Source: Sporocytophaga sp. (lineage in GTDB: Bacteria > Bacteroidota > Bacteroidia > Cytophagales > Cytophagaceae). From it: a stretch of 64,000 bases of DNA. The notes under the pieces are model-generated. The model was not told the DNA's origin. It ran no database searches and was given only the letters and a program-made list of their open reading frames with translations. Positions 4,552 through 24,872 of the stretch are shown piece by piece. The position numbers and the translations under genes are program-made. The stretch spans positions 62,001-126,000 of the forward strand of contig JANQAB010000008.1 in assembly GCA_024707265.1 (NCBI GenBank). Direction: 5' to 3'. How positions within the stretch are numbered: the stretch's first letter is position 1; every line of letters starts with the position of its first letter.

Positions 4552-4748
4552 AGTTATTAAGGATGAATAAGAAACTTTCTCTAAAAAATATCCTGTAGAG
4601 CCGCCATGCATTGTGTCTTTACTATCCCTGCAGTACGGGCACTTTTATTTGCCGGACACTATAAACGAAAAACATTATTGTCATAATATTTCCCATCGAC
4701 GTTCTTTATAACAGTTTTGGGGCCAGGCATTGCTTCTCTGCGCATAAC

Positions 4749-4775
4749 AAAAAAGCCCCTATTCGGGGCTTTTTT
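4749..4775. terminator. Bidirectional rho-independent terminator between miaA and pfkA
   Basis: A perfect stem of A6-GCCCC paired with GGGGC-T6 around a 5-nt loop lies directly after the convergent 3' ends. It has T runs in both directions, so it can serve pfkA on the minus strand and miaA on the plus strand. The sequence between 4552 and 4748 shows no convincing gene. Confidence 0.85.
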
Positions 4776-4776
4776 A

Positions 4777-5781: not shown

Positions 5782-6469
5782 ACTTTATAACCTATATTTT
5801 CTGGGTCAATTTTAAGAAAAATTTTTATGTTTTTAAAATCCTTGTAATATAACAATCGATAAATCTGAAATTTCATACCAATTATATATACTCAAGGTCA
5901 ATTTTTTAAGCCTTAACGAATGTGTCTAAATAAAATTGAAAAATCAAACTATTCTTAAAAAATAAGATAAGTATATAATTTTATGGTTTTGTCTCCCCAT
6001 TTACTCTTCATTTTATAAAAAAGATCTCCAATAGTCATGATTTATGGAATTTTAATTGAATATTTTCTTTTTTTTTTAAGTTCGAGGATTATTAAAAATA
6101 TTCAAAAAACACTTCGAAATAAGTTAAATAGTTGGTAAGTAATAATATAATGTTTTTTTGATTATTGCTTTGGCGGAATATAGGATTATATTATTTAAAA
6201 TTTTTAAATAGGTTTTTTAACGATAATGAGAAAAGGCGATTAGTGACTAAATCGTCAATAACCTTTGAGTAAAATGTAAAATATATATTATCTTTCGGGG
6301 ATTAAATAATATGATTTTTTGTTAAAATAAGATTCAACGGAGTCTTTGTTAGATTATACAATATATCCTTCAAATAGTCCGTCACACAAAAGCTTAGGTG
6401 AAAAATTAAGCTCTATTCTGAATCTGAAAACTTGAATCAAAGACAAAGAAAAGTAAATAAGTATTGAAT
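5782..6469. other. Long AT-rich intergenic region between divergent genes
   Basis: This stretch of nearly 700 bases separates the divergent pfkA and SDR epimerase genes. It is very AT-rich and has no open frame with coding character on either strand. It should hold two divergent promoters, but I find no exact TAnnTTTG element at a convincing distance from either start. No repeat or hairpin of note was seen. Confidence 0.6.
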
Positions 6470-7531
6470 ATGAATATAGCCATAATTACGGGTTCTGCCG
6501 GATTAATAGGAAGCGAAGCGGTTGGTTTTTTTAGTGATAAATTCGATCTGATAGTAGGAATAGATAATGATATGAGGCAGTATTTTTTTGGCAAAAATGC
6601 TTCTACCACTTGGAACAGACAAAGGCTGGAAACTACTTATCAAAATTATACTCACCACGCTCTTGATATCAGGAATCAGGAAGAATTAGATAAGCTTTTT
6701 GCTCAGTATGGAAAAGATATAAAACTGGTTTTGCATACAGCAGCGCAACCAAGCCACGACTGGGCTGCAAAAGAGCCGTTTACTGATTTCTCGGTAAATG
6801 CTAATGGTACTCTGAATATGTTAGAGATGACCAGAAAATATTGTGCAGACGCAGTTTTTATTTTCACCTCTACTAATAAAGTGTATGGAGACACTCCAAA
6901 TTTTCTGCCTCTCGTAGAATTGGAAAATAGATGGGAAATAAGCGAAGAACATCCGTATTTCAAAAATGGAATAGATGAGCATATGACTATTGACCAGTCA
7001 ACACATTCTATTTTTGGAGTTTCAAAAGTAGCTGCTGATATACTGGTTCAGGAGTATGGCAGATATTTTGGAATGAAAACAGGTGTTTTCAGAGGTGGCT
7101 GCCTTACTGGGCCTAACCACTCTGGTACACAGCTACATGGTTTTCTTTCCTATCTGATGAAATGTGCAATTACGGGGGAGCATTATACAATCTTTGGATA
7201 CAAAGGAAAACAAGTCAGAGATAACATACACAGTTTTGATCTGATTAATATGTTCTGGCATTTTTATCAGAATCCTCGTCAGGGAGAAGTATATAACGCA
7301 GGAGGAGGAAGATTTGCCAACTGTTCAATGAAAGAAGCGATTGTGATTTGTGAAGAAATTACAGGAAAGAAAATGAATTATTCCTATTCAGAAAATTCAC
7401 GTGTAGGCGATCATATCTGGTATATTAGCGATTTGTCAAAATTTAAAAATCACTATCCGGACTGGAATTATAAATATGATTTGACAAATACGCTGGAAGA
7501 AATTTTCAATGGCTTAAAAAGCAGGATATAA
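6470..7531 (+). CDS. NAD-dependent epimerase/dehydratase of the CDP-paratose 2-epimerase-like group
   Basis: An extended short-chain dehydrogenase of 353 residues from the ATG at 6470; a TTG two codons upstream is possible but less likely. The Rossmann motif [10 protein letters not shown] lies at the N-terminus, and [12 protein letters not shown] follows as the SDR catalytic strand. In place of the usual YxxxK, the active site reads HSIFGVSK, so the catalytic Tyr position is Phe while the Lys is kept. My recollection is that homologues of this WcaG-like group share the Phe. [13 protein letters not shown] lines the sugar pocket. It probably acts on a nucleotide-linked sugar for surface polysaccharide. 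It stands at the left edge of the glycan island and its stop codon almost touches the corrected stop of the convergent GT4. Confidence 0.8.
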
Positions 7532-8705
7532 TCATTGGTAATAGCGGATTATGTGATCCGCTATTACTTGATACGCTGTTATTTCCATTTTATACAACTG
7601 GTCAGCAAGTATTATTGACTCTTTTTTTCTTACTTTCTACCTCTTCCGGTGAAATATTCTCAGTAAAGTTGATCAATTGATTTTTTAAATCTTTATCAAT
7701 ATCAATAAGCCAGGATGCTTTCTGGAGCATAAACCAGGTGTCTGCTTCCTCGTTTCCATAAAATAATACAGTGCCCCCGGTACATATTGAGCTAATTGCT
7801 TTAGAAGGAACAGCAGTATGATTAAACTCAGGGAGCAAACTTACCAGATGGATGTCTATATAATGTAGCTGACTTCTTGGAACATTTTTAAGCATTGTTA
7901 TACCAGCTTTTCCTTTCGCATACTCTTGTACTTCAGAAGCTTTTGGGCCGTATACCGCTAAAATTAAATGGTGTGTATCCGGATTGAAGCTATCAATAAA
8001 TGCTTTCAGAAATTCTTTGGAATGGGGAGCTCCCAGATTGCCACAATAACCAAAATAAATTTTTCCATCTTCTTTTTTCCATTCGGGAATTTGTATGTCT
8101 TTTTCATAATCTGTAAAGACGCCACATGGCAATACTGTAACAAGAGGGGAGCTTTTATAATTTGTCAGGATATATTCCGCTTGTTTTGGGCCCAATGAAA
8201 CAAGTAATTCAGGTTTATTATTGTAAGTGATGTATCTGATAATTTTATAAAGCAAAGAATCATTTTTCATTTTCTTGTTCGCTACAAAAGCCTCTGGAAA
8301 TAAATCCATTGACCAGAATATCCACTTTATGCGAAATAACCCGAAAAAAATGGATGCCCAAAAAGGCAATAAAGGTGGGCTGGTCATGCAAATGACAGGT
8401 CCTTTTTTTACAAAAAGGGTTTTAATTATCAAAAATAAACCATCAAGAAAACCGGCAAGAGATTTCAAAGCTTCATTTTTACCTTTGTATAAAGTTGGAA
8501 TTGAAACGATTTTTCCAATGGGAGATCTCACCGCTCCTCCGCCGTCATCACTTCGCAGTACATGGATTATTTGTACCTGTATGTTGTATTGATCAATCAG
8601 GTATTTAGCGAGGTCCCAGGCAGATTCACCTGTTATGCCAGGATTGGGAGGATAGTGTCTGTTTACAATTGTTACCCACTTCTCTTTTCTTCGATTATCA
8701 GACAT
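7532..8705 (-). CDS. Glycosyltransferase family 4, frameshifted near the C-terminus
   Basis: The gene starts at ATG 8705. The N-terminal domain holds NRHYPPNPGITGESAWDLAK, characteristic of WbuB-like GT4 enzymes that begin glycan assembly on nucleotide sugars. The C-terminal domain contains GYCGNLGAPHS and HYIDIHLVSLLPEF. As sequenced, the frame stops at 7602. Removing one base from the seven-T run at 7622-7628 (A7 on the coding strand) extends it by about 24 residues to a stop at 7532, for about 390 residues. The extension reads like protein, so the shift is probably an artefact. It is convergent with the SDR epimerase, and lies back to back with the legionaminate operon, separated by a 344-bp region. 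Confidence 0.8.
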
Positions 8706-9049: not shown

Positions 9050-10048
9050 ATGGAGTTAAAAAATAAGAAAGTCCTGATTACGGGAGCGGACGGGTTTATC
9101 GGAAGTCATCTGGTTGAAAGGTTATTGGAAGAAGGTTGCAAGGTCAGGGCATTTGTATATTATAACTCCTTTAACTCCTGGGGATGGCTTGATTCATTTC
9201 CTAAAGAAAAACTCTCACAACTTGAAATAGTTGCTGGAGATATAAGAGATCCGCATGGAGTAAAAAATGCAATGAAAGATATCGAAGTCGTTTTTCACCT
9301 TGCAGCGCTTATCGCTATCCCTTACAGTTACCATTCTCCGGATACTTATATCGATACCAATGTGAAAGGCACTTTGAATATAGTTCAGGCTGCGAAAGAG
9401 CTTGGTGTTGAGAGGGTATTGGTTACCTCAACATCGGAGGTGTACGGAACTGCCCTTTATGTTCCTATAGATGAGAAACATGCTCGCCAGGGACAATCTC
9501 CTTATTCTGCAACCAAAATTGGTGCAGATTACATAGCGGATTCATTTTACAGAAGCTTTGGTGTGCCTGTAACTATTGTGCGTCCATTTAATACTTATGG
9601 TCCCAGGCAGTCGGCACGGGCTGTAATTCCTACAATTATCACCCAATTGCTTGCAGGTAAAAATGAGATCAAACTTGGTTCTCTGCATCCGACAAGGGAT
9701 TTATTATTTGTTAAGGATACGGCAAAAGGATTTATTGAAATTGCAAAGTCTGATGCAGCCATTGGCGAAGAGGTGAACATAGCAATGCAGGAAGAGATTT
9801 CTGTTGGAGATTTAGCACAAAAGCTGATAAACCAGATTAATGGGAACGCAAAGATTATTACGGACGAGCAGCGATTCAGACCTGAAAAAAGCGAGGTAGA
9901 ACGCTTATTCGGTAGCAACAGGAAAATTAAAGAGCTTACAAGCTGGAAGCCTGACTATACGTTAGATTCAGGATTAGCAGAAACTATTAAGTGGTTTTCT
10001 GAAGCATCTAATCTGGCCAGATATAAGACTGATATCTACAATATTTAA
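9050..10048 (+). CDS. legB: Nucleotide-sugar 4,6-dehydratase, legionaminate pathway
   Basis: LegB-type enzymes use bound NAD to convert a nucleotide-linked GlcNAc to its 4-keto-6-deoxy form, the first committed step to legionaminic acid. The 332-aa extended SDR has the GADGFIGSH Rossmann motif near the N-terminus, a TSTSEVYG catalytic strand that includes the Glu typical of dehydratases, and an intact YSATK active site. Downstream lie an aminotransferase, acetyltransferase, NeuB-, NeuC- and NeuA-like genes in pathway order. That order is what distinguishes this from a generic epimerase. It is the first gene of the operon, with 49 bp to legC. Confidence 0.88.
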   Translation: MELKNKKVLITGADGFIGSHLVERLLEEGCKVRAFVYYNSFNSWGWLDSFPKEKLSQLEIVAGDIRDPHGVKNAMKDIEVVFHLAALIAIPYSYHSPDTYIDTNVKGTLNIVQAAKELGVERVLVTSTSEVYGTALYVPIDEKHARQGQSPYSATKIGADYIADSFYRSFGVPVTIVRPFNTYGPRQSARAVIPTIITQLLAGKNEIKLGSLHPTRDLLFVKDTAKGFIEIAKSDAAIGEEVNIAMQEEISVGDLAQKLINQINGNAKIITDEQRFRPEKSEVERLFGSNRKIKELTSWKPDYTLDSGLAETIKWFSEASNLARYKTDIYNI

Positions 10049-10097: not shown

Positions 10098-11238
10098 ATG
10101 ATTCCTCTTTCAGTACCCAATATTTCAGGAAATGAATGGACATACATCAAGGAATGCCTTGATACTAACTGGGTTTCTTCCGTTGGAAGTTATGTAACTA
10201 AATTTGAGAAAACGCTTGCTGAATATACCGGTGCAAAGTACGCTATAGCGACTTCCAACGGTACAGCAGCGCTTCATATCAGCCTTCAGCTGGCAGGTGT
10301 AGAAAAGAGGGGACCTGGTTGTTATTCCCAATATTACTTTTGTCGCTACTGCTAATGCAGTGAAGTATACCGGGGCCGACCCGGTGATGATTGATATAGA
10401 CACCAACACCTGGCAAATGGATCTTGGCTTGCTCGAGGAATTTCTTCAAACTCATACGGAGATACGGGAAGGGTTTAGTTTCCATAAAAAATTAAACAGA
10501 AGGATAAGTGCCATTGTACCGGTTCACGTTCTTGGTAACATGTGTGACATGGATCAGTTCATCCGAATAGCTCAGAAGTACAGGTTGACTATTGTCGAAG
10601 ATTCTACTGAAGCATTAGGAAGCAAATTGCGAGGTAAGCATGCAGGTACCTTTGGTTTATTTGGAACCAGCAGTTTTAATGGAAATAAAATTATTTCTAC
10701 CGGAGGAGGTGGAATGATTCTCACCAATGATGAGAAGCTGGCAGCAAAGGCAAAACACCTTACCACTCAGGCAAAAGCTGATCCTAACGAATATTATCAT
10801 GATGAAACCGGTTATAACTATAGGCTTGTAAATATCCTGGCAGCAATGGGAGTTGCCCAGATGGAGCAATTAGATGCTTTCATCAAAAGGAAAAAGGTGG
10901 TAGCTCAGATGTATAAAAATGAGTTATCTTTTATTGAAGGATTCAAGACTCAGGAGGTGATTGAAGGAGTGGAGCCCAATCATTGGTTGTTTACAGCGAA
11001 AGTTCCGGAGAAGGAGGGGCTTATTGCTCATCTGAAATCTAAAGGTGTGGAAGCAAGATCATTTTGGGTACCAATGAATCGCTTGCCCATGATGACAAAG
11101 GACCTTTATTTTACTCATAATGATATTTCACAGGATGTATATCAGGCTTGTGTGAGCCTTCCTTGCTCAACATCCATTAAGGATGATGAGGTGAATCAGG
11201 TTATTCAATTTGTTAAAGACTTTTATTCGGGATTATAA
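10098..11238 (+). CDS. legC: LegC-family PLP aminotransferase, frameshifted as sequenced
   Basis: LegC transfers an amino group to C4 of the 4-keto sugar made by LegB. The protein is a DegT/DnrJ/EryC1 (fold type I) aminotransferase with AIATSNGTAALH near the N-terminus, VEDSTEALGS, and the PLP lysine in SFNGNK followed by STGGGG. As written, the first frame stops at 10355 after 85 residues, and the rest is open from 10360. Skipping one base near 10308 restores a continuous 379-aa protein reading VEKGDLVVIPN across the junction. The extra base is not in a long A/T run, so this case is less clearly an artefact than the others. Legs B, C, H, I, G, E-like and F follow each other closely on one strand. 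Confidence 0.85.
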
Positions 11239-11241
11239 AAC

Positions 11242-11873
11242 TTGAAAAAACTTATACTCATAGGCGGCGGAGGTCATTGCAAATCTTGTATCGAGGTGAT
11301 TGAATCATGCGGAAGCTATGAGATAAAAGGTATTCTTGAAAAGGATTTGACTAAAGGCGAAACTATCTTAGGATATCCGATTTTAGGAGGAGATGAGCTT
11401 ATTCGGAGTTGGCACAACATGGATATGAATTTTTAATTACAATTGGTCAGTTCAAATCTCCGGCATTAAGAATTAAACTTTATAATTCGATAAAACAAGC
11501 TGGTGGGAAATTAGCCACTGTTATAGCTGCATCAGCTATTGTCTCAAAGTATGCTAGTATAGGAGAAGGTACAATTGTAATGCATGGTTGTATTATAAAT
11601 GCCTCTTCAGAGATCGGGCATAATGCGATTCTCAATACACGGGCAATAGTTGAACATGATGTAAAGATTGGTAACCATTGTCATATATCCACTAATGCAG
11701 TATTGAACGGAGGGGTTAAGGTGGGTGACAACTGTTTTATTGCAAGTTCAGTCGTGACATTCCATGGTGTTTCAATTGCATCGAATATAGTGGTCGGCGG
11801 CCATTCTACTGTAGTGAAGGATCTGCTTGAAGAAGGCGTTTACATAGGAAGTCCTGCAGTTTTTCATAAATGA
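11242..11873 (+). CDS. legH: PglD/NeuD-like sugar O/N-acetyltransferase, frameshifted as sequenced
   Basis: This enzyme is expected to N-acetylate the 4-amino sugar from LegC using acetyl-CoA. It starts at a TTG 3 bp after legC. The N-terminal PglD-like domain contains LILIGGGGHCKS. The C-terminal part is a left-handed beta-helix made of hexapeptide repeats (ASIGEG, SEIGHN, VKIGNH, VKVGDN), with the catalytic His in the EHD segment. The first frame ends at 11436 and the remainder is open through 11873. A missing base near 11405-11409, probably in a G run, reconciles them into about 210 residues reading DELIRELAQHGYEF. Together with legC this puts two shifts in adjacent genes. Confidence 0.8.
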
Positions 11874-11894: not shown

Positions 11895-12914
11895 ATGAAA
11901 CCATCAATTTTAATCATTGCCGAAGCAGGAGTTAATCACAACGGAAGCATTGATATAGCGAAAAAACTTATTGATAAAGCTTTTGAAGCTGGTGCTGATA
12001 TTATAAAATTCCAGACATTTAAGGCTTCGACAATTACAAGTAAAAAATCAGAGAAAGCCGAATATCAGAAGAAAATGACAGGTGCGGATGAGGGGCAATA
12101 TGAAATGCTAAAGAGACTTGAATTGAATGAAACGCACCATCATATTTTAAAAGAATATTGCGAAACCAAACCAATCGAATTTCTTTCTACCCCTTTTGAT
12201 TTGCAAAGTATTGACTTGTTAAAGGGTCTTGGAATTAATATCGGTAAAATCCCTTCTGGTGAATTAACCAATTTACCTTACTTAAGGAAGATGGCTCAAA
12301 GCTTTGAGAACATCATCCTTTCCACTGGAATGGCAAATCTGGAAGAAGTTAAAATCGCTGTAAATGTCCTTTTGAGCAGTGGGCTTAAAAAGGAGCATCT
12401 TACCGTTTTGCATTGCACTACAGAATATCCTACACCAATGAAAGATGTTAATTTAAATGCAATGTTAACAATCCGGAAAGAGCTAAATGTTGCTGTTGGG
12501 TATTCTGATCATACCAATGGTATTGAAATTCCTATAGCTGCAACGGTACTGGGGGCGACCATAATAGAAAAACATTTTACACTTGACCGGAATATGGAAG
12601 GCCCGGATCATCAGTCTTCTCTTGAACCGGAGGAATTGAAAGCAATGGTCGCTGCTATAAGAAACATTGAAATAGCACTTGGAGATGGAATTAAAACACC
12701 TTCGGAATCTGAAAAAAAGAACATCGGGATTGCCAGAAAAAGTATACACATTTTGAATAATCTTCCTGCAGGTCATATACTTGAAGAAGGAGATTTAATT
12801 ATGAAAAGACCAGGAGATGGCATCAGTCCGATGGAGATGGATCAAGTGATTGGAAAAAAATTACTGAAGCCGTTGAATGAGGATGATAAATTAAATTGGA
12901 AGGATATCGGATGA
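11895..12914 (+). CDS. legI: N,N'-diacetyllegionaminate synthase (NeuB family)
   Basis: NeuB-family synthases condense a 6-carbon amino sugar with phosphoenolpyruvate to give a nine-carbon nonulosonic acid. The 339-aa protein has the TIM-barrel signature AEAGVNHNGS near the N-terminus, KFQTFKA, and the substrate segments HCTTEYPTP, GYSDHT and EKHFTLDR. A C-terminal SAF (antifreeze-like) domain begins around ARKSIHILNNLPAG. The gene is complete. Its TGA stop overlaps the ATG of the next gene by 4 bp (ATGA), so the two are translationally coupled. The choice of legionaminate over sialate or pseudaminate rests on the neighbouring LegB, LegC and PtmE-like genes. Confidence 0.92.
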   Translation: MKPSILIIAEAGVNHNGSIDIAKKLIDKAFEAGADIIKFQTFKASTITSKKSEKAEYQKKMTGADEGQYEMLKRLELNETHHHILKEYCETKPIEFLSTPFDLQSIDLLKGLGINIGKIPSGELTNLPYLRKMAQSFENIILSTGMANLEEVKIAVNVLLSSGLKKEHLTVLHCTTEYPTPMKDVNLNAMLTIRKELNVAVGYSDHTNGIEIPIAATVLGATIIEKHFTLDRNMEGPDHQSSLEPEELKAMVAAIRNIEIALGDGIKTPSESEKKNIGIARKSIHILNNLPAGHILEEGDLIMKRPGDGISPMEMDQVIGKKLLKPLNEDDKLNWKDIG

Positions 12915-14014
12915 AAATAGCAGTACTTACCAGTTCCAGAGCCGATTATGGCATCTATTATCCTTTGTTGAAATTATTAAAGGAGGATGTTTTCTTTGAT
13001 CTTGAAATTATAGCTTTTGGAACGCATTTGTCGGTGGCACATGGATATACCCTTAGCTGTATAGAAAAAGACGGATTCGGGGTAAAGCATCAGATCTCTA
13101 CTGTTCCTGGAGGTGACAGCCCTTCTGATATTGCGTTTTCAATTGGTGACACGATCGAAAAGTTTTCCAAACTATGGAATGAGAATAAATATGATCTCGT
13201 ATTTGCATTGGGAGACCGCTATGAAATGTTTGCAGCTGTTAGTGCTACAACTCCCTTTAATATCAGGGTAGCTCACATTTCGGGAGGAGAAACAACACTT
13301 GGTGCTATTGATAATGTTTATAGACATTCTATTACATTAATGTCAGCCTATCATTTTGTTTCTACAGATATATATAAGAAAAGAGTTATAGAAATTACAG
13401 GTTCAGAAGAACATGTGTACAATGTAGGAGCTTTGAGCATAGACAATCTGAGAAATATGAAACTCCTTTCTTCTCAAGAGTTTTATCAGAAGTTCAATAT
13501 AGATCTGTCCAAACCATCAATTCTTATAACCTTCCATCCGGAAACAGTTTCTTATGAGAAGAATGAAATCTATATCAATGAGGTTATAAAGGCCCTGGAA
13601 AAATGTAGTGAGTATCAATTGGTTATTACTATGCCCAATACTGATACTATGGGCAATATGATCCGGGCAAGGTTAAAGGATTTTATTGCGCATTCAGAAA
13701 ATGCGATAGAGGTCGAATCTTTTGGAGCATTGGGTTATTTATCCTGCATGAAGTATTGTGCATTTATGCTGGGAAATACATCCAGCGGATTTGTTGAGGC
13801 TTCATTTTTTCCAAAATACGTGATCAATCTTGGAGACAGACAAAAGGGAAGACTTGTAACTCCTAATATTATAAACGTACCCATACAACACGAAGAAATA
13901 GAGAAGGCTATAAAGAAAGTAGAAACTTTGAAGCCTCTTAACAATCTGAATGTCTATGGAACCGGTAATGCTTCCGGGCAAATAGTGAATATCCTTAAAC
14001 AGGTTACAAAATAA
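12911..14014 (+). CDS. legG: Hydrolysing UDP/GDP-sugar 2-epimerase (NeuC/LegG family)
   Basis: The enzyme removes the nucleotide and inverts C2, giving the free 6-deoxy mannose-type diacetamido sugar used by LegI. From the ATG at 12911 it is 367 residues. MKIAVLTSSRADYGIY is the characteristic NeuC start, followed by ALGDRYEM, AHISGGETT, and a C-terminal region with FHPET and GNTSSGFVE that binds the nucleotide. A TTG five codons upstream gives a longer frame, but the ATG overlaps the legI stop in the ATGA arrangement and matches the family start. It is complete with no frameshift. Confidence 0.9.
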   Translation: MKIAVLTSSRADYGIYYPLLKLLKEDVFFDLEIIAFGTHLSVAHGYTLSCIEKDGFGVKHQISTVPGGDSPSDIAFSIGDTIEKFSKLWNENKYDLVFALGDRYEMFAAVSATTPFNIRVAHISGGETTLGAIDNVYRHSITLMSAYHFVSTDIYKKRVIEITGSEEHVYNVGALSIDNLRNMKLLSSQEFYQKFNIDLSKPSILITFHPETVSYEKNEIYINEVIKALEKCSEYQLVITMPNTDTMGNMIRARLKDFIAHSENAIEVESFGALGYLSCMKYCAFMLGNTSSGFVEASFFPKYVINLGDRQKGRLVTPNIINVPIQHEEIEKAIKKVETLKPLNNLNVYGTGNASGQIVNILKQVTK

Positions 14015-14023
14015 GTCGCTGTA

Positions 14024-15073
14024 ATGTCTTATAAACTTGAATTTGAAAAATATGTGATCTCCGAAAGCTGCACGCTTATGCAGGCATTGGAGAAGCTTAA
14101 TACGAACGATAAGCTAACATTAATTGTATTAAATAATAACAGTGAAGTTGTAGGTACAATTACTGATGGCGATATACGCAGAGGTATCTTAAAGGGCGTA
14201 TCACTTGAATCCCCCATATCAACCTTCATGCACAGTAACTTTATTTTCCTTAAAAATGGTCAGCCGGATTTAACACTGATCGATTCTGTAAGGAAAAACA
14301 ATATAAGGCTCTTGCCTGTGCTGAACGATGAAAGGAAGCTTGTTAAACTTTTTGATCTTACAAGACAGAAGTCATTGCTTCCTTTAGAGGCAGTTTTAAT
14401 GGCGGGAGGTAAAGGCGAAAGGTTGAGGCCATTGACAGAAAAAACACCAAAGCCTTTGTTGAAGCTGGGCAATAAAGCCATTATCGAATATAATATCAAC
14501 AACCTGAGTAAATTCGGAATAGAGAATGTATATATCTCTGTTAAATATCTTGCTGATCAGATCGTTGACTATCTGGGAGATGGAGAAAAGTATGGATTGA
14601 ATATCCAATACATAAGAGAAGATGAGCCGCTTGGAACATTAGGAGCAGTAACTCTTGTAGATAATTATGAATCTGATACCGTGCTGGTAATGAATTCTGA
14701 TTTGTTTACTAACCTTAACCTAGAGGAGTTTTACAATCATTATATGGAAGAAGGAGCCGACATGGCAATTGCGACTTTTCCTTATGTAGTTTCAGTACCT
14801 TATGGAGTACTCAATATAGAAAATTCTTCTGTCACTTCAGTTGCTGAAAAGCCAACTTATACCTACCACGCCAGTGCCGGTATGTATTTGATTAAAAAGG
14901 AGTATTTTAATCTAATTCCAAAAAATACTTTCTACAATGCTACAGATCTAATGGACCTTCTGTTCTCTATGCAGAAGAAGATTACTTATTTTCCTATTGT
15001 TGGATACTGGATAGACATTGGAAAGCCTGATGATTACAAGAAGGCTCAGGAATATGTAAAATATCTGGAATAA
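14024..15073 (+). CDS. CBS-domain sugar-1-phosphate nucleotidyltransferase (PtmE-like)
   Basis: Residues 1-120 form a tandem CBS pair (GTITDGDIRRGIL is a clear CBS motif). From about residue 125 a nucleotidyltransferase domain begins with LMAGGKGERLRPLTEKTPK, the signature of sugar-1-phosphate nucleotidyltransferases. In Campylobacter jejuni, PtmE of this architecture makes GDP-glucosamine for the legionaminate route. By analogy this enzyme may supply the nucleotide sugar for LegB, making the pathway GDP- rather than UDP-based. That assignment is inferred from architecture and context. Companion PtmF and PtmA genes are not visible here. The stop is immediately followed by the ATG of legF. Confidence 0.85.
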   Translation: MSYKLEFEKYVISESCTLMQALEKLNTNDKLTLIVLNNNSEVVGTITDGDIRRGILKGVSLESPISTFMHSNFIFLKNGQPDLTLIDSVRKNNIRLLPVLNDERKLVKLFDLTRQKSLLPLEAVLMAGGKGERLRPLTEKTPKPLLKLGNKAIIEYNINNLSKFGIENVYISVKYLADQIVDYLGDGEKYGLNIQYIREDEPLGTLGAVTLVDNYESDTVLVMNSDLFTNLNLEEFYNHYMEEGADMAIATFPYVVSVPYGVLNIENSSVTSVAEKPTYTYHASAGMYLIKKEYFNLIPKNTFYNATDLMDLLFSMQKKITYFPIVGYWIDIGKPDDYKKAQEYVKYLE

Positions 15074-15766
15074 ATGAAAACCATGTTTCTAATTCCTGCC
15101 AGGGGCGGTTCCAAAGGTATTCCCGGCAAAAATATTAAAAACTTTAACGGTAAGCCTCTCATTTATTACAGCATAGATCTTGCAAGAGCGTTTGCTGATG
15201 ATAAAGATATATGTGTTTCTACAGACAGTCAGGATATTGTTTCGGCGGTTCGGGAGTATGGCTTGGAACCTCCATTTACCAGACCTGCAGAGTTTGCGAC
15301 AGACACAGCTTCCGGATACGATGTAATTAAACACACCATTCAGTTTTATGAAGAAAAAGGTGTTCAGTATGACAGAGTTGTTTTACTGCAACCTACTTCT
15401 CCTTTAAGAACTATAAAACATCTTAGAGAAAGCCTGGAACTATATAGTGATGATGTGGATATGGTTGTGAGTGTACAGGAGATGTATAATCCCATATACC
15501 TTTGTTACAATGAAGACGAAAACGGGTTTCTTAAAAAGGCAGCAGAAAATAAGTATACGAGGAGGCAGGATATGCCCAAAGTATATAAATACAATGGTGC
15601 GATTTATATCATGAAAGTGGAGTCTCTGAAAAAAACATCTCTCGCAGAATTTACTAAAATAAGGAAGTATGTAATGGATGATACGGATTCTGTTGATATC
15701 GATACGCCTTTGGATTGGGAGATCGCAGAACTGATTTATAATAAAAAAATAAAGGATAATAAATAA
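15074..15766 (+). CDS. legF: CMP-nonulosonate (legionaminate) cytidylyltransferase
   Basis: This NeuA-family enzyme activates the nonulosonic acid with CTP to give the CMP-sugar donor. The 230-aa protein begins with FLIPARGGSKGIPGKN, the CTP-binding signature. It continues with STDSQDI, LLQPTSPLR and DDTDSVDIDTPLDWE, the metal and substrate motifs of the family. It is the last enzyme of the pathway and directly abuts the PtmE-like gene (TAAATG). A flippase follows after 31 bp, in keeping with export of the finished glycan. Confidence 0.9.
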   Translation: MKTMFLIPARGGSKGIPGKNIKNFNGKPLIYYSIDLARAFADDKDICVSTDSQDIVSAVREYGLEPPFTRPAEFATDTASGYDVIKHTIQFYEEKGVQYDRVVLLQPTSPLRTIKHLRESLELYSDDVDMVVSVQEMYNPIYLCYNEDENGFLKKAAENKYTRRQDMPKVYKYNGAIYIMKVESLKKTSLAEFTKIRKYVMDDTDSVDIDTPLDWEIAELIYNKKIKDNK

Positions 15767-15797: not shown

Positions 15798-17288
15798 ATG
15801 AGTACAATTAAAAAACAGTCCTTATACAGTGCTATCTTTTCATACCTTGGGGTTGTAATAGGATTTATCAGTCAGGGATTGCTAATTCCAAATTTGCTGA
15901 CCAAAGATCAAAACGGACTTTTGGGATTACTTTTATCTTTTATGTATATATTCGTGCAGTTAGCCAGTCTTGGTTTTAACTACGCAGGTAACAGGTTCTT
16001 CCCGAGTTTTAGTGAAAGAAAGGGATATGGAGGCTTTATTTTTACTGGTCTTAGCATATCTATTTTAGGTTTTCTGTTGGCATCAGGCATCTTAGTGTTA
16101 TTAAAACCTTTATTCTTATCTTCATCCACAGAAAGATCAACTATATTAGACCATTATTTTTATCTGCTTCTTCCTATTTCTTTTGGTACTATATTGTTTA
16201 ATTTTTTTGATAGCTATTCAAGGAATTTATTCGAAACCGTATCCGGAACCTTTCTGAATCAATTCGTACAAAGATTGATAATTTTGATAGGACTACTGCT
16301 TATAGCAGTGATTGGAATAAGTTTTGATGTCTTCATCTGGATTTGGACTTCAGCATTTATAATACCCACAATATGGATGATTATTAAATCCGTACAATTA
16401 AGTGGGTTTTCTCTTAAACCTGATTTCTCCGTTTTTACTCCTAAGTTCAGGAAGGAATTTATCAATTACAGCCTTTTAACAATACTTACAGGGTTTTCAT
16501 CTATGATTATTATGTACATAGATAAGATTATGCTTGCTTACTATGGAGGGCTAGAAGACACCGGTGTCTATAACACTGCATCTTTTTTCGGAAGTATTAT
16601 GGGAATGTCTTTGATTGCCATGAGCAGAGCTGCTGTCCCTGTTATTGTAAATGCATTTAAAAATAATGACCTGCACACAATACAAACGATCTATCGAAAA
16701 AGTTGTGTCATGCAGGTGATAATCGGTTGTCTTATATTTGGAGGGATTCTTATAAATCTGGATTCCTTTTTTGAGCTGATTCCCCAAGGGTATGAGGAGG
16801 GGAAATGGGTAATCATAATTCTTGGTCTGGGTAAACTTTTTGACCTGGCCACAGGCTTAAATGGAAGTGTATTAGCTTTGTCAAAATATTACAGATATGA
16901 CTCAGTCATCATGATCAGCCTTATTTTCCTGACCATAATTTCTAATATGCTTCTAATCCCGGAGTACAAACTGATAGGAGCAGCCATGGCGGCAGCTATT
17001 TCTACATTTTACTATAATTCAATAAAGTATTGGCTGGTATTGAAAAAGTTGAAAATGCAGCCTTTTGATATTAACTTTCTTAAAGTGATCATCGTGTCAT
17101 CAATTATCATTGCAGCCGCTTATCACATACCTTTAATAGGTGGAAATGTTTTTAATAACCTTTTGGATATGGCAATCAGATCTAGTATTTTCTCTATTGT
17201 CTTTATTGCAGTAATATATAAAATGAGGGTGTCACCAGAGATGAATGATATAATTAACCGGGTATTAAAATTACTGATAAAGTCATGA
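15798..17288 (+). CDS. Wzx-like oligosaccharide flippase / polysaccharide biosynthesis membrane protein
   Basis: This 496-aa protein is very hydrophobic, with about 12-14 predicted membrane segments along its length and short charged loops. The N-terminal half opens with KKQSLYSAIFSYLGVVIGF, typical of the MVF/MATE-like polysaccharide transporter (PST) family. Members move undecaprenyl-linked oligosaccharides across the inner membrane. It follows legF and overlaps the ATG of the next gene by 4 bp, so it belongs to the same transcript as the nonulosonate genes. No polymerase (Wzy) is recognisable in the window. Confidence 0.85.
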   Translation: MSTIKKQSLYSAIFSYLGVVIGFISQGLLIPNLLTKDQNGLLGLLLSFMYIFVQLASLGFNYAGNRFFPSFSERKGYGGFIFTGLSISILGFLLASGILVLLKPLFLSSSTERSTILDHYFYLLLPISFGTILFNFFDSYSRNLFETVSGTFLNQFVQRLIILIGLLLIAVIGISFDVFIWIWTSAFIIPTIWMIIKSVQLSGFSLKPDFSVFTPKFRKEFINYSLLTILTGFSSMIIMYIDKIMLAYYGGLEDTGVYNTASFFGSIMGMSLIAMSRAAVPVIVNAFKNNDLHTIQTIYRKSCVMQVIIGCLIFGGILINLDSFFELIPQGYEEGKWVIIILGLGKLFDLATGLNGSVLALSKYYRYDSVIMISLIFLTIISNMLLIPEYKLIGAAMAAAISTFYYNSIKYWLVLKKLKMQPFDINFLKVIIVSSIIIAAAYHIPLIGGNVFNNLLDMAIRSSIFSIVFIAVIYKMRVSPEMNDIINRVLKLLIKS

Positions 17289-18169
17289 GTGCAATTACAT
17301 CAGTGAGCAAATATTTAAGTGATTTTTTAACCAAAGGAGTTCAGACCTGTGTCTCCTTAGTGCGAGTCTTGCTTATGTCAAGACCTGTCACTCATTTGCC
17401 ACCTCCTCAAAATAAAATTTGCAGTATTTTAGGAAACGGTCCTTCTCTGAGTACATCTCTCGAACAGCATCTGAATATTATAAAAGAGACGGACCTAGTA
17501 TGTGTTAATACCTTTGCGACATATGACTATTTTGAGCAGTTAAAACCTGAGAATTATGTAATAATTGATCCTTTGTTTTTTTCTGAGGAGGGTAGTAAAA
17601 ATGATGTAATAATTTCAACTTTTAAATCATTAAAGGACAAAACCACCTGGAATTTAAATTTATTCGTTCCTTTAAAAGTTAAAAAATCAGCCATACTGCA
17701 AGAGCTGCTGGCTCGGAAACCAAATATTAAAGTAGTGTATTTTAACTATACAATATTTGAAGGTTTTGATTTTATAAAACATTTCTTTTTTTCAAAAGGG
17801 TTAGCAATGCCTCAGTGTGAAAATGTATTGGTAGCTACTTTGTATTTGATGATTAACAGAAATTATGAATACATATATTTATATGGAGCGGATCACTCCT
17901 GGCATGAACATATTAGTATCAGAGAGGATAACATCCTTACAATAAAAGTCCTGCATTTTTATAACCCGGATGCAGCTAAGGAAAAAGAGATGCTTTTATA
18001 CAATGAAGACAAAAAGAGAACAACAATGACCAACCAGTTTTTGTCTATTTCGAAAGCATTCAGAGGGCATGAAATACTAAAAGTATATGCAGATTTCAAA
18101 AAGGTTAAAGTTTTCAATGCAAGCGCCAAAAGTTATGTGGATGCATTTGAAAGAATTAAGTTCAATTAA
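17285..18169 (+). CDS. Putative nonulosonate (legionaminyl/sialyl) transferase with GNGPSL motif
   Basis: I do not recognise a named orthologue. The 294-aa protein has a nucleotide-binding signature, ICSILGNGPSLS, at about residues 45-57, then CVNTFATYDYF. The same GxGPSL motif occurs in GT42 sialyltransferases of the Cst-II type and in the DUF115/Maf proteins that transfer legionaminic or pseudaminic acid. LYGADHSWHEH lies in the middle, which could supply the catalytic His region, and a C-terminal VKVFNAS segment resembles the end of the DUF115 core. It overlaps the flippase by 4 bp and sits just after the CMP-legionaminate genes. The transferase role is inferred from motif plus context. 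Confidence 0.6.
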   Translation: MSAITSVSKYLSDFLTKGVQTCVSLVRVLLMSRPVTHLPPPQNKICSILGNGPSLSTSLEQHLNIIKETDLVCVNTFATYDYFEQLKPENYVIIDPLFFSEEGSKNDVIISTFKSLKDKTTWNLNLFVPLKVKKSAILQELLARKPNIKVVYFNYTIFEGFDFIKHFFFSKGLAMPQCENVLVATLYLMINRNYEYIYLYGADHSWHEHISIREDNILTIKVLHFYNPDAAKEKEMLLYNEDKKRTTMTNQFLSISKAFRGHEILKVYADFKKVKVFNASAKSYVDAFERIKFN

Positions 18170-18179
18170 TTATTAAGAC

Positions 18180-18986
18180 ATGTTCGCGTTAAAATATCTC
18201 TTTAAGAGTGTATACAGAATGTTGAAATCAGCCTATGGGCGTCATTTACTTTTATTAATGGCCAAATACGGGAATGTTTCCAGATATTCTCCAAGGAACA
18301 TATCATTTCTAAACTATAGATTCCAGGTTCCTGATTGTTGGTCATTCCTATTTCAGTTTCAGGAAATTTATGTGGAGCAATATTATAAGTTTGAAACAAA
18401 GGAAAAGAATCCAGTAATTTTTGATTGTGGAGCCAATATTGGTACTAGTTGCCTTTATTTTAGTACTCTTTACCCGACCTCTAAAATTGTAGCATTTGAG
18501 GCTGATCCGAATATTGCTTCTATTTTAAAAAACAACCTTGCTAACAATAATATCAAAAATGTAGATATCATAAATAAGGCTGTGTGGATAGACAATAAGG
18601 GAATTGAATTTTCGATAGAGGGAGCTGATGGGGCCTCCATCTTTGGTAGTGGGGAAAAGGTAAAAATTGAATCTGTAAGACTACGTGATCTTTTGTTGCA
18701 AACTTCTAAGATCGACATGTTAAAAATGGACATTGAAGGAGCGGAGTCTGCTGTGTTAAAGGATTGTGCTGATGCATTGACAAATGTCGAGAATATTTTT
18801 ATAGAATATCATTCATTTCCCGGACAGCAACAGGAGTTGAATGAAATATTAGGAATCCTTTCGAAGAATAATTTTCGGTATTATATAGATTCAGCTCAGG
18901 GCCGACAGTCTCCTTTGGTAAACCATTTCTACAGAGACAATAAAATAATGGATCTGCAGCTTAATATATTCGCTTATAAAAACTAA
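18180..18986 (+). CDS. FkbM-family SAM-dependent methyltransferase
   Basis: The 268-aa protein carries the methyltransferase motif I as FDCGANIGTS near residue 80, followed by AFEADP (motif II acid) and DMLKMDIEGAE, the FkbM signature. FkbM enzymes O-methylate sugars or polyketides. In glycan islands they commonly cap or decorate sugars, so methylation of the legionaminate-containing glycan is a reasonable guess. The gene begins 10 bp after the putative transferase. Confidence 0.85.
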   Translation: MFALKYLFKSVYRMLKSAYGRHLLLLMAKYGNVSRYSPRNISFLNYRFQVPDCWSFLFQFQEIYVEQYYKFETKEKNPVIFDCGANIGTSCLYFSTLYPTSKIVAFEADPNIASILKNNLANNNIKNVDIINKAVWIDNKGIEFSIEGADGASIFGSGEKVKIESVRLRDLLLQTSKIDMLKMDIEGAESAVLKDCADALTNVENIFIEYHSFPGQQQELNEILGILSKNNFRYYIDSAQGRQSPLVNHFYRDNKIMDLQLNIFAYKN

Positions 18987-19043: not shown

Positions 19044-20313
19044 ATGAAAGTTTTAATTCTAAGCACATTTGATACTTTTGGAGGGGCAGGAATTGCGGCC
19101 TTACGTCTTCATAAAGCTTTATTAAAAAGTGGTCTGAAGTCTGAAATGCTTGTTCAGGAAAAGAAAGCCAATAACCAAAATGTTTATAGCATTGCAAACT
19201 CCTGGGTTCAGAAGAAACTTGCATTGTTCCGATTTGCAGTAGACAGGTTACAATTTTCTTTTTATGAAAAAGATAAATCTGCCCGTTTTATTTTTTTCTC
19301 AAGCTGAATTAGGTGTTGATCTCAGTAATAATCCTCTTGTAAAGGAAGCAGATGTTATTCATCTTCATTGGATTAATTTTGGATTCCTCTCTTTAAACTC
19401 AATTCAAAAGCTGATAGCAACCGGTAAACCAATAATAATAACTCTTCACGATATGTGGACATTCACCGGTGGTTGCCATTACAGTAAAGATTGTACCAAC
19501 TATCTCAGAGCATGTGGCAATTGCCTTCCGTATTTAAAGCATCCTCATGAAACAGATTTGTCGAGAAAAGGGTGGAATAAGAAAGCGGAGGTTTTCGGTC
19601 ACAAAAATCTTACAATTGTTCCTTGCAGTGAATGGCTTGCTTCAAAAGCGAGACAAAGCAGTTTGCTGAAAAATAAAAAAGTAGTATCTGTTCCCAATCC
19701 GATAGATGTATCAGTCTTTAAACCGGAAGATAAAACTGTTGCCAGAAAGTTCTTTAACCTGAACCCTGATAAAAAATATATACTTTTTGCAGCAATGAAA
19801 GTAAGCGATGAAAGAAAGGGATTTGCTTTCTTCAAAAGTGGGCTGGAGTTATTGGCAAAACAACATTCAAATGATCTTCAGGATACAGAATTGCTAATTT
19901 TTGGTCTTTATGATGATCAGGATTTTGCAGGTATACCTTTTAAAATAAATAGCCTGGGAAGATTGTCAGATATTTCAACTATTGTTAAAGCATATTCTGC
20001 CGCATCTGTATTCGTTATCCCTTCTTTGGAGGATAATTTACCCAATACAGTAATGGAAGCATTGGCATGTGGGACACCTGTGGTTGGCTTTAATACAGGG
20101 GGAATTCCAGAAATGATAGAGCACCGTAAAACGGGTTATGTAGCAGATTATAAATCATCGGAAGACTTAGCGGCAGGTATTTATTGGACCATATTTCAGG
20201 CCCCCTATGAAACATTGGTTGCACAATCAAGGCAAAAGGCTGTTACTGATTATTCAGAAGTGTCTGTAGTAGAAAAATATTTTCGTTTATATCAGGAAGC
20301 AAAGGGAAACTAA
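19044..20313 (+). CDS. Glycosyltransferase family 4, frameshifted as sequenced
   Basis: The first frame runs from ATG 19044 and opens with LILSTFDTFGGAGIAALRLH, a strong GT4 start, but stops at 19307. The rest is open from 19264 to 20313 in another frame. Removing one T from the seven-T run at 19291-19297 joins them into a 422-aa enzyme reading ARFIFSQAELG across the junction. The later part holds TLHDMWTFTGGCHYS, PSLEDNLPNTVMEALACG (the EX7E region) and GFNTGGIPEM. It is the last gene of the island and is followed at once by a strong terminator. Confidence 0.85.
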
Positions 20314-20365: not shown

Positions 20366-22786
20366 TTATTCTTTCCTTTTTATTGAAGAGGAGAGCTGGA
20401 CTCCAAGTAATCCAACTATCGATAATACTAAAATCCAGGATCCTATTCTTGAAATCTTTGAACCTGTAATATAAGAAGTAGGTTCAAATTTAAATGAAAC
20501 GGTGTGTTCTCCTGCAGGAATATTCAAAGCACGGAGAATGTAATTTACTCTGATATGCTCTACAGGTTTGTCATCAATATAAGCATTCCAGCCTGGTTGA
20601 TAGTAAACATCTGAGAAAACAACCAATTGATCCTTCTTTGATTTTGATTCAAATGTAAGATGGTTAGGATGGTAATCTTTAAGTACAATAGAAGCTGTGG
20701 TGTCGATTGAAAGATTTAAATCCTTTACATAGCTTTCAAATTTCTTATCTACAATAGCAGTTCTGGAAGGATCAAAATTATTTAATCCTTTAAGTTCTTC
20801 ATCAGGATTCGGAACAATCCTAACGCTATCGACAGCCCAGGCATTTCCTAAAGCGCCAGGATTTCTTTGTACCATTGGCTGGTTGCTTTGCTTGTCAGGT
20901 ACAATAAAGTATCTGGTATTAAGCATATTTAATACCGCCATATTGTTTTTGCTCAAATGTGCGTCAATAAGATCCTGGTATCTTCCCAGCTTTATCGCAC
21001 TATAACCTCCTACAGATTTGTGAAAATAAGAGGTGATTGCATCTGCAAAGGGATTGGTCGTTACATTGAAAACTCTGAAATATGGATCCTTGTCCTGACC
21101 AATCATATCATCAGCAGGGCTTGGGACAAATATAGTTTCTGCAAAATTTTGCTTGTTTTTAAAATCTTTTGAGTTCAGATATCTTTTATCTACAGTCCAA
21201 AGATCAACAAGGATAAGAACAGCCAATATAATATAAAATATATTCTCCTTTAATTTATCATTAATAACAGCCCAAATCATACCGGCAGCTGCTGTTATAA
21301 AAAACAATGATCTAAATGCATCCATTCTTAAAACAGAAGCACGGTCCTCTTTTAATGAATCAATCAACCACGTTGGAAGCTGAGCATCAGAAGCTCCGTT
21401 AAAGTCAAAGAACGCACCGCCTAAAATGGCAAAGAAAAGCGCCAGTCCACCGGTAATACCGAAAGCGATTTTAAGTCCTTTCATTATTTCTTCTTTTGAA
21501 AGCTCGCTATCCAATATTTTTTTCAATACAACAAAACCAAGCAGAGGGAAGGTTATTTCTGCAACTGATAGAATCATAGTAACACTTCTGAATTTATTAT
21601 AAAGTGGTACATAGTCGAAGAACAGGTCTGTAAGCAATTCAAAATTTTTCCCCCAAGAAAGCATAATGGATAGTATAGTCACAGGGATGATCCACCATTT
21701 CAATGGTCCCTTTATAAGAACCAATCCCAATACAAATAAGAAGCAGATGATGGCACCAAAATATATTGGTCCTGAAGTAAATGGCTGGTCACCCCAGTAC
21801 ATTGGCATACTTTCAATGTATTCCTTCGCCTGACTTTTAGCGATTCCATTATTAACCATGGTTTTGAAAGTCTCGGATCCGGTGCTTAACTGTTCGTTTG
21901 AACTGCCCCCATAGAATGATGGAATGAGTATGGTCATGGTTTCTGTTATACCATTGCTCCAGCTTAGCGCATATTCCTTATCTAGTCCGGTTCCTTGGTC
22001 TTTTTTAGCCAATAAATCAGAACCACCTCTGGGGGTTGCTTTCGAATACTCAGACATTGTCCATAGTCTGGCAACATTAGGTGCAATACTTATGATAGTA
22101 CAGAAGAAGAGTACAACAGAGCCAATTAAAAATCTTTTGAGATTATTTCCTTTCAAAGCATAGATAAACTCAGCGATGATTATGAAAATTACCATGATCA
22201 ACAGATAATAGGTAATCTGTACGTGGCCATAATATATCTGGAGTGATAAAGATGCAATTGTTAATGCTGCTCCGGTGATCATATTTTTGCGGTATGTTAA
22301 TACAATACCCGCAATAACAGGGGCCATCAGCATCATGTCATAAACTTTATTAATATGCCCGGCTTCTATACTTATTAAATTGTAACTGGAGAAAGTATAA
22401 GCCAGCGCACCTGCAAAGCAAAGCCATACATTTAATCCGAATACATGCAAAAGAATGTAGAAACCTGTGAATCCGAACAGACAAAGAAGTACCGGGTTAG
22501 GTATAAAACTGTTCAAAAAGGTATTGACATAGTTAAGCACATTGGCTCCTGCTCCTCTCCAAACCGGCATTCCACTGAAGGTGCTGTTTGACCATAAAAT
22601 TTCCTCATTGGAGCTTTTGGCAAAATCGGAAGATTCCTTTATAGCTCCAAGTGTTTGAATCATATCATTTTGAGCCAGGCTTTTACCATTCAGGTAAGGG
22701 GAAAAATAAACCAAGGTGATGATTAAAAATATGACGAATGCTATAAGGTGCGGTAAAACCTTTATTTTAAAGTTGTTTATATTCAT
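20366..22786 (-). CDS. YfhO-family large membrane protein
   Basis: This 806-aa protein has an N-terminal membrane domain with many hydrophobic helices, similar to the GT-C fold, and a C-terminal extracytoplasmic domain that ends with one more membrane segment and SSSIKRKE. The C-terminal part holds VFSDVYYQPGWNAYIDDKPV and LNIPAGEHTVSFKFEP, typical of YfhO proteins. Firmicute YfhO homologues act on lipoteichoic-acid glycosylation; the role in Bacteroidota is unknown but a lipid-linked sugar transferase is plausible. An exact TAnnTTTG promoter element lies upstream (22822-22829). Confidence 0.85.
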   Translation of the reverse strand: MNINNFKIKVLPHLIAFVIFLIITLVYFSPYLNGKSLAQNDMIQTLGAIKESSDFAKSSNEEILWSNSTFSGMPVWRGAGANVLNYVNTFLNSFIPNPVLLCLFGFTGFYILLHVFGLNVWLCFAGALAYTFSSYNLISIEAGHINKVYDMMLMAPVIAGIVLTYRKNMITGAALTIASLSLQIYYGHVQITYYLLIMVIFIIIAEFIYALKGNNLKRFLIGSVVLFFCTIISIAPNVARLWTMSEYSKATPRGGSDLLAKKDQGTGLDKEYALSWSNGITETMTILIPSFYGGSSNEQLSTGSETFKTMVNNGIAKSQAKEYIESMPMYWGDQPFTSGPIYFGAIICFLFVLGLVLIKGPLKWWIIPVTILSIMLSWGKNFELLTDLFFDYVPLYNKFRSVTMILSVAEITFPLLGFVVLKKILDSELSKEEIMKGLKIAFGITGGLALFFAILGGAFFDFNGASDAQLPTWLIDSLKEDRASVLRMDAFRSLFFITAAAGMIWAVINDKLKENIFYIILAVLILVDLWTVDKRYLNSKDFKNKQNFAETIFVPSPADDMIGQDKDPYFRVFNVTTNPFADAITSYFHKSVGGYSAIKLGRYQDLIDAHLSKNNMAVLNMLNTRYFIVPDKQSNQPMVQRNPGALGNAWAVDSVRIVPNPDEELKGLNNFDPSRTAIVDKKFESYVKDLNLSIDTTASIVLKDYHPNHLTFESKSKKDQLVVFSDVYYQPGWNAYIDDKPVEHIRVNYILRALNIPAGEHTVSFKFEPTSYITGSKISRIGSWILVLSIVGLLGVQLSSSIKRKE

Positions 22787-23545: not shown

Positions 23546-24872
23546 ATGTTCGAAAGTTTAAGTTCAAAAATTGATAAAGCCTTAAAAACGCTTAAGGGGC
23601 AGGGCAAAATAACTGAAATTAACGTAGCTTCTACGGTTAAGGAAATCAGAAAGGCGCTTATCGATGCCGACGTAAATTATAAGGTTGCAAAATCTGTAAC
23701 AGATAGTATCAGAGAAAAAGCATTAGGCCGAGAGGTTCTTATCGCTGTTTCTCCAGGGCAGCTTCTCGTTAAAATTGTCAGTGAGGAGCTTACCGAACTG
23801 ATGGGAGGGACCAAAGAGGATATCAACACGAAAGGGGATCCGGCTGTCATTCTAATTGCTGGTTTACAAGGATCAGGTAAAACAACTTTCTCTGCTAAAC
23901 TTGCCAGCTATTTAAAAAAACAGAATAAGAATGTATTACTGGCTGCTTGTGATATTTATAGACCAGCGGCTATTGACCAGCTTAAAGTTCTTGGAGAGCA
24001 GGTAGGTGTGGAGGTTTATTCAGAACCTGAAAATAAAAATGCAGTTCAGATTGCTAAAAATGCAATTGAACATGGTAAAAAGAATAATAAAAAAATTGTA
24101 ATCGTCGATACTGCGGGTCGTCTTGCAATAGATGAGCAAATGATGAAGGAAATTGAGGAGGTAAAAGCCTCTGTTAATCCTTCTGAAACTCTTTTTGTTG
24201 TCGATTCAATGACTGGTCAGGATGCTGTGAATACTGCTAAAACCTTCAATGAACGGTTGAATTTTGACGGTGTTGTTCTTACCAAATTAGACGGCGATAC
24301 CAGAGGTGGTGCTGCTTTATCAATCAGGGCAGTTGTGGACAAGCCAATAAAATTCATCAGTACAGGTGAGAAAATGGAGGCATTAGACCTTTTCTATCCT
24401 GACCGTATGGCTCAAAGAATCCTGGGAATGGGAGACGTGATTTCACTTGTTGAAAGAGCCCAGCAGGTTTTTGATGAAGAAGAAGCAAAAAAGCTGAATC
24501 AGAAAATAAGAAAAAAATCAGTTTAGCTTTGATGACTTTTTAGCCCAGATCCAGCAGATTAAGAAGATGGGTAGTATTAAGGATCTGGTCGGGATGATTC
24601 CTGGTATGAATAAAATGATGAAGGATATAGATATTGATGATAATGCATTTAAACCTATTGAAGCTATCATTAGAGCTATGACCCTGGAGGAAAGAGAGAA
24701 TCCGGATATTATCAATGGAAGCAGAAGAAAGAGGATTGCAGATGGTAGCGGAACAACTATTCAGCAGGTTAATAATCTTATCAAGCAATTCTCTGATATG
24801 AGAAAGCTTATGAAGAATATGAATAAGATGGGGAAAAAGGGAATGCCTAATATGAATGCATTAGGAAGATAA
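23546..24872 (+). CDS. ffh: Signal recognition particle protein, frameshifted as sequenced
   Basis: Ffh binds 4.5S RNA and signal sequences and, with FtsY, targets nascent membrane proteins to the translocon. The N and G domains are intact in the first frame: LQGSGKTTFSAKL is the P-loop, DTAGR is G3 and LTKLDGD is G4. This frame ends at 24526 after EEEAKKLNQKIRKK. The methionine-rich M domain (MGSIKDLVGMIPGMNKMM) continues in another frame to 24872. Deleting one A from the A7 run at 24511-24517 yields a 441-aa protein reading KNQFSFDDFLAQ across the join. As ffh is essential, a sequencing error is the likely cause. Confidence 0.93.

Follow-up and report, generated by a model that had tools for sequence, protein, structure and literature searches.

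A putative transferase gene follows a legionaminate-type gene set

The window, by which we mean the whole 64,000-nucleotide stretch of Sporocytophaga sp. DNA that was analysed, carries the genes listed in Table 1. Judged by profile scores and domain content, the genes upstream of the candidate transferase are a legionaminate-type set. The original prediction had described a complete CMP-legionaminate pathway at this place; the gene set is indeed of that type, but LegC and NeuD are both frameshifted in the window. Because the essential gene for Ffh, the signal recognition particle protein, is also split here (ORFs of 326 and 101 aa), and is intact in two Sporocytophaga-like genomes, L025 and L044, as one 441-aa ORF at the matching place, the LegC and NeuD frameshifts are probably indel errors of the assembly. 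The reading frame of the candidate transferase, unlike those of LegC, NeuD and Ffh, is uninterrupted. An 806-aa membrane protein, encoded on the opposite strand, adjoins the cluster, and its family is present in nine of 36 homologous neighbourhoods. In two of the loci (L080 and L087), large proteins adjoining the transferase homologue are assigned to YfhO by Pfam; YfhO-type proteins are elsewhere tied to glycosyl transfer from lipid carriers. A role of the 806-aa protein with the nonulosonate glycan is possible.

Table 1. Genes at and around the candidate transferase locus (positions in the window)
Feature	Coordinates	Strand	Remarks
LegB NAD-dependent 4,6-dehydratase	9050..10048	+	TIGR04180, 510 bits (cut-off 475)
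LegC aminotransferase	10098..11238	+	Frameshift near 10303-10307 relative to a 379-aa relative; listed ORF only 10360-11238
NeuD/LegH-type acetyltransferase	11240..11873	+	Start approximate; frameshift near 11380-11409 relative to an intact relative; listed ORF only 11409-11873
NeuB/LegI nonulosonate synthase	11895..12914	+	TIGR03569, 484 bits (cut-off 400)
NeuC/LegG, hydrolysing UDP-sugar 2-epimerase type	12896..14014	+	TIGR03568, 397 bits (cut-off 236)
PtmE-like CBS plus nucleotidyltransferase	14024..15073	+	Domain content
CMP-nonulosonate synthetase, LegF type	15074..15766	+	CTP_transf_3
Wzx-type flippase (Polysacc_synt)	15798..17288	+	496 aa; stop overlaps transferase start by 4 bp
Candidate CMP-nonulosonate transferase (P0001)	17285..18169	+	294 aa, ATG start; basis: sequence, profile, context, model
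FkbM-family methyltransferase	18180..18986	+	Directly downstream of transferase
GT4-type glycosyltransferase	19264..20313	+	349 aa; about 422 aa in L025 and L044; in 4/36 homologous neighbourhoods
Membrane protein	20366..22786	-	806 aa
Ffh (split)	23546-24526 and 24567-24872		326 + 101 aa

The ORF of the candidate transferase, its GNGPSL motif and the 4-bp overlap with the flippase gene are all present as originally described, and the same overlap occurs in L025 and L044. In the translation of the ORF (here termed P0001), a moderately hydrophobic N-terminal helix is found, ILGNGPSL spans residues 48-55 (GNGPSL, residues 50-55), and N75, D95, G201-x-D203, H224-F-Y226, N278 and D286 are the other marked residues. 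Since orthologues of equal length are 91-92% identical to P0001, and since N51, G52, P53, N75, G201, N216, Y226, N278 and D286 are invariant across 44 aligned family members, we regard it as the product of a genuine gene and not of a chance ORF. The histidines of the ADHSWHEH sequence, to which the original prediction had drawn attention, are poorly kept (H204 in 20 and H207 in 30 of the 44 members). The best-kept histidine is H224 of the H-F-Y motif (42 of 44, with Asn in two members from legionaminate clusters), which appears to be the better catalytic candidate.

Homologues of P0001 travel with nonulosonate synthesis genes

A homologue of P0001 was found in 15 of 98 relatives, in 46 of 390 genomes of the order and in eight of 395 genomes of a phylum sample. 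A NeuB/PseI synthase is encoded in 49 of the 51 distinct Bacteroidota genomes with a homologue, within 12 kb of it in 40 and elsewhere in the genome (beyond 12 kb) in nine; in the two synthase-less genomes, one of which is only 69% complete, the contigs that bear the homologue are very short (3.6 and 4.2 kb). For FkbM methyltransferases, the cell-surface family chosen as control (82 genes in 33 of the 51 genomes), 16 genes have a synthase within 12 kb (Fisher p 1.7e-11 against 40 of 51), and in the order sample a synthase is present in 44 of 46 genomes with a homologue versus 213 of 344 without one (p 6e-7), both p-values being optimistic as related genomes are counted as independent. The pattern spans several families and extends past the order and the class; many synthase-carrying genomes are without a member of the P0001 family. 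Three loci from a single genus (L079, L080 and L084) have the transferase gene with no nearby nonulosonate genes, the synthase being elsewhere in these genomes.

The families that recur in 36 neighbourhoods are the synthase (32), an aminotransferase (29), a dehydratase (28), the CMP-synthetase (22) and Wzx (18), while the commonest other glycosyltransferase family that was identified is seen in only four; as the neighbourhoods were collected via the homologue, these counts cannot show that every nonulosonate cluster has a family member. They do bear on the proposal that the CMP-nonulosonate is the substrate of another enzyme, either the GT4-type protein encoded downstream or a transferase encoded elsewhere, and that P0001 does something else to the sugar or glycan, e.g. 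an MptE-like nucleotidyl- or pyrophosphotransfer. The known nonulosonate transferases of Tannerella forsythia are described as GT-B type (PMC6120980), the best Pfam match of P0001 is the sub-threshold MptE-like one and pyrophosphokinase structures score well against its model (see below), all of which would fit such a division of labour. However, the GT4 gene occurs in just those four neighbourhoods and no other identified glycosyltransferase is commoner, whereas the P0001 family is constant; the closest profile matches in the PDB, moreover, are CMP-sialic acid transferases. We consider this proposal unlikely.

Remote relatives were also seen in viral contigs (IMG/VR). In one of these, L091, a stretch of less than 6 kb (3229-8672) holds genes for NeuB, a CMP-synthetase (NeuA) and a transferase with GNGPSL, by gene content a virus-borne nonulosonate set. 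In five others (L095, L098, L099, L096 and L100) MptE-like or similar proteins are encoded near genes for CMP-sugar synthetases or NeuB-like proteins, as in L099, where 5338-5976 directly precedes 5989-6669. A further viral relative, L092, was marginal only and was dropped.

Remote homology to CMP-sialic acid transferases

In Pfam and NCBIfam profile searches P0001 exceeded no curated family cut-off, in keeping with the earlier statement that it has no clear named orthologue. Nor did any unrelated family match with confidence; such a match had been named in the original prediction as one that would speak against it. The best Pfam match was to MptE-like (PF01973; 17.5 bits, about half of the cut-off of 34.6) and the only clear NCBIfam match was to WaaZ (TIGR04437; 16.6 bits, cut-off 200). 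No match to PF06002 (GT42, CST-I) was obtained at E<=1, and the PHROGs matches were weak. Sub-threshold MptE-like matches were found for 12 of the 13 members of our first alignment (best E 3.5e-8) and WaaZ matches for four of the 13 (best E 5e-6). Two remote relatives, L023 from Bacteroidota (49.8 bits) and the viral L091 (47.9 bits), exceed the MptE-like cut-off; against PF06002 (cut-off 25) they come near, yet stay below, with 22.4 and 18.8 bits, respectively.

Neither P0001 by itself nor the 13 homologues collected first led to anything relevant among the PDB sequences. A profile of eight sequences, drawn from the family and its remote members, was then compared with the whole PDB; the top match was Cst-I of Campylobacter jejuni (2p2v, E 2.4e-8), followed by Cst-II (about 2e-7; the Cst-I and Cst-II entries range from 2e-8 to 6e-7) and, lower, by the Pasteurella multocida sialyltransferase (E 0.0017) and MptE (0.07). 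When the 44-sequence family alignment was compared, as a profile, with Cst-II (the 259 residues used agree fully with PDB 1ro7), the probability was 97%. The positions of Cst-II N9, in the GNGPS loop, and N31 are invariant in this alignment (45 of 45), as is, in the family, that of G152, and that of D154 nearly so. The position of Arg129 varies in the alignment made here, and that of His188, the general base of Cst-II (PMC4202792), is mostly Tyr, in a last part of the alignment that is insecure.

By remote homology the P0001 family is thus shown to be linked to GT42, MptE and Maf, as the distant likeness to GT42 and DUF115/Maf proteins put forward at the outset had implied. With Cst-I and Cst-II the family shares the GNGPSL loop, the asparagine at the N31 position, the G-x-D motif and, as we propose, CMP-nonulosonates as the donor class; it differs in being found with legionaminic or pseudaminic acid pathways, and P0001 carries an additional helix at its N-terminus as well as further residues ahead of the last strand. 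In the literature on PF01973, MptE-like and DUF115 proteins, as far as our incomplete coverage of it goes, no description of the family was found, and it is apparently unnamed, lying between GT42, Maf and WaaZ.

WaaZ, the Kdo III transferase of Escherichia coli, deserves separate mention. From its family name, we take it to transfer a CMP-activated ulosonic acid, and like P0001 it gives a sub-threshold MptE-like match. The 44-sequence alignment matches it over nearly its full length (hhalign probability 92%), with VN, D, SGxD, FYD and YNxS positions in common. Together with its standing as the sole clear NCBIfam match, this could mean that P0001 transfers a different CMP-activated ulosonic acid, e.g. 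Kdo, and that its place in a nonulosonate cluster is incidental. Yet WaaZ lacks the asparagine of the GNGPS loop and belongs to a lipopolysaccharide core context, in contrast to the nonulosonate cluster of P0001, which also scores below 10% of the curated WaaZ cut-off. A Kdo enzyme, moreover, would not be expected to follow nonulosonate synthases so tightly, those for legionaminic and pseudaminic acid alike. We regard this reading as very unlikely.

The predicted fold

An AlphaFold model of P0001 was built without templates from five aligned sequences, none of them from a Cst protein; its confidence is low (pLDDT 48, pTM 0.55). A first model, from three sequences (pLDDT 43), had given no usable structural match. 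The top Foldseek rows for the five-sequence model were CMP-sialic acid transferases, with low TM-scores and E-values no better than 2e-3. In structural alignments of this low-confidence model, Cst-I gave a Z-score of 9.5 (143 residues, 21% identity), the P. multocida sialyltransferase 9.4, Cst-II 9.0, MptE 8.3, the core of Maf (5mu5) 7.9 and human sialyltransferases about 6. The alignments to sialyltransferases, MptE and Maf span residues of about 30-289 of P0001 (36-289 for Cst-I and Cst-II). Thiamine pyrophosphokinases reached a Z-score of 10.2 on the same model, over fewer residues and with lower identity, and so stand level with Cst-I. The comparison with Cst-II and Maf that had been suggested as a check thus yields the expected resemblance, but with a tie from the thiamine pyrophosphokinases, and in a model too weak to decide on a CMP pocket; we take the model as support for a GT42/MptE-type fold, short of proof for a CMP pocket.

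The central domain of Maf was earlier described as Cst-II-like (PMC11339370). P0001 resembles Maf in the fold of this domain, as modelled, and presumably in the donor class, CMP-nonulosonates; the Z-score of its core against the Maf_flag10 domain and its sub-threshold PF01973 match could be taken to place it among the protein-O-nonulosonate transferases of the Maf type, with a protein as its direct acceptor. P0001 is, however, a single domain of 294 aa and lacks the N- and C-terminal domains that flank the core in Maf, a three-domain protein (PMC11339370). Searches of the window's genome found no flagellin and no second MptE-like protein (a search for Glyco_transf_52 was uninformative, giving no match in any control genome either), and the overlap with the flippase gene suggests a lipid-linked glycan. 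Direct transfer to protein is, in our view, improbable.

Legionaminic or pseudaminic acid

The loci of the family differ in the sugar pathway that they encode. Some, the window among them, are of the legionaminate type, with LegB, NeuC, PtmE and a NeuB that exceeds its cut-off; others are of the pseudaminate type, with PseB, PseF, PseG and PseI over and PseC close to the cut-off; L085-L087 form a third group, in which the synthase is divergent. In a maximum-likelihood tree, the deep part of which is left unsure by long branches, legionaminate- and pseudaminate-linked members are not separated, and the legionaminate label needs at least six changes. The pseudaminate-linked L063, 49% identical to P0001, nests beside the clade of the window. 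In L082 (genome G699) the order Wzx, transferase, FkbM and GT4 is as in the window, but the pathway is pseudaminic; from the gene content, we read this locus as one in which the sugar pathway was swapped and the adjoining transfer module conserved.

Because many members sit in pseudaminic acid clusters, 'legionaminic' cannot be read from the protein: the protein family points to nonulosonates in general, and it is the local pathway alone that specifies legionaminic acid. Of the original designation as a legionaminic-acid transferase, the link to nonulosonates holds across some fifty genomes, and the restriction to one sugar gives way to a family that serves nonulosonates generally, pseudaminic acid included. 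In T. forsythia, two transferases that are 81% identical serve pseudaminic or legionaminic acid in different strains (PMC6388019). We tentatively suggest, as an almost evenly balanced reading, that P0001 represents a separate Bacteroidota family of CMP-nonulosonate glycosyltransferases, which has distant relatives in viral contigs and whose several switches between legionaminate and pseudaminate partners reflect a donor choice that is lax, or readily changed, in an active site of a single design.

A proposed role for P0001

As its relatives adjoin or travel with nonulosonate genes, and as profile and rough fold point to sialic acid transferases, we think it probable that P0001 is a CMP-nonulosonate glycosyltransferase of the GT42/MptE type and belongs to none of the Cst, Maf and WaaZ groups. 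Its donor at this locus would most likely be CMP-legionaminic acid.

We infer donor, reaction, mechanism and acceptor as follows. CMP-legionaminate would be supplied by the genes just upstream. P0001 would act in the cytoplasm and, given its moderately hydrophobic N-terminal helix, is probably membrane-associated. The donor may bind the face formed by GNGPSL, N75 and the GxD motif of a GT42-like Rossmann-type domain, the GNGPS loop and N75 being placed as N9 and N31 are in Cst-II, and D95, G201-x-D203 and H224-F-Y226 would line the donor and acceptor site. A hydroxyl of the acceptor, activated by a conserved base (candidate H224), would attack C2, in a transfer predicted to be inverting and metal-independent, like that of Cst-II. 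The sugar would be added to a glycan growing on a lipid carrier, and Wzx would flip the product across the inner membrane. The acceptor may be a surface polysaccharide or a Bacteroidota-type O-glycan, with capsule, O-antigen and O-glycoprotein as options.

Other nonulosonate transferases provide points of comparison. The pseudaminyltransferase KpsS1 (GT118), which we take to be KpsC/S-like, also lies outside the classic sialyltransferase families. According to a title cited in PMC12887879, KpsS1 is retaining, unlike the predicted reaction of P0001, and no KpsC/S-type (PF05159) protein was found in the P0001 genome. The genes for GtfS and TFUB4_00887 of T. forsythia cluster with those for Wzx, CMP-pseudaminic or CMP-legionaminic acid synthesis and methyltransferases (PMC6388019; PMC6120980). 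The setting of P0001, also in Bacteroidota, is alike in all these respects; the two proteins differ from it in size (445 and 442 aa) and in being GT-B enzymes with a DXD motif. Both KpsS1 and the T. forsythia enzymes are set apart from P0001 by description, not by sequence. For the outer O-glycan of Bacteroidota, assembly on a lipid carrier followed by flipping has been proposed (PMC12871550).

As a type, the cluster in the window is nothing unusual: a further nonulosonate cluster that brings its presumed transferase along. The family to which that transferase belongs ties GT42, Maf and WaaZ enzymes together via intermediate sequences, and it offers a likely transferase for the nonulosonate clusters of Cytophagales, where none named was found. 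Only a small number of legionaminic and pseudaminic acid transferases are available, spread across families with no relation to one another, and these enzymes are the main gap in making or editing glycans with such sialic-acid-like sugars. A compact family with natural legionaminate- and pseudaminate-linked members at 40-50% identity would be well suited to the study of donor choice.
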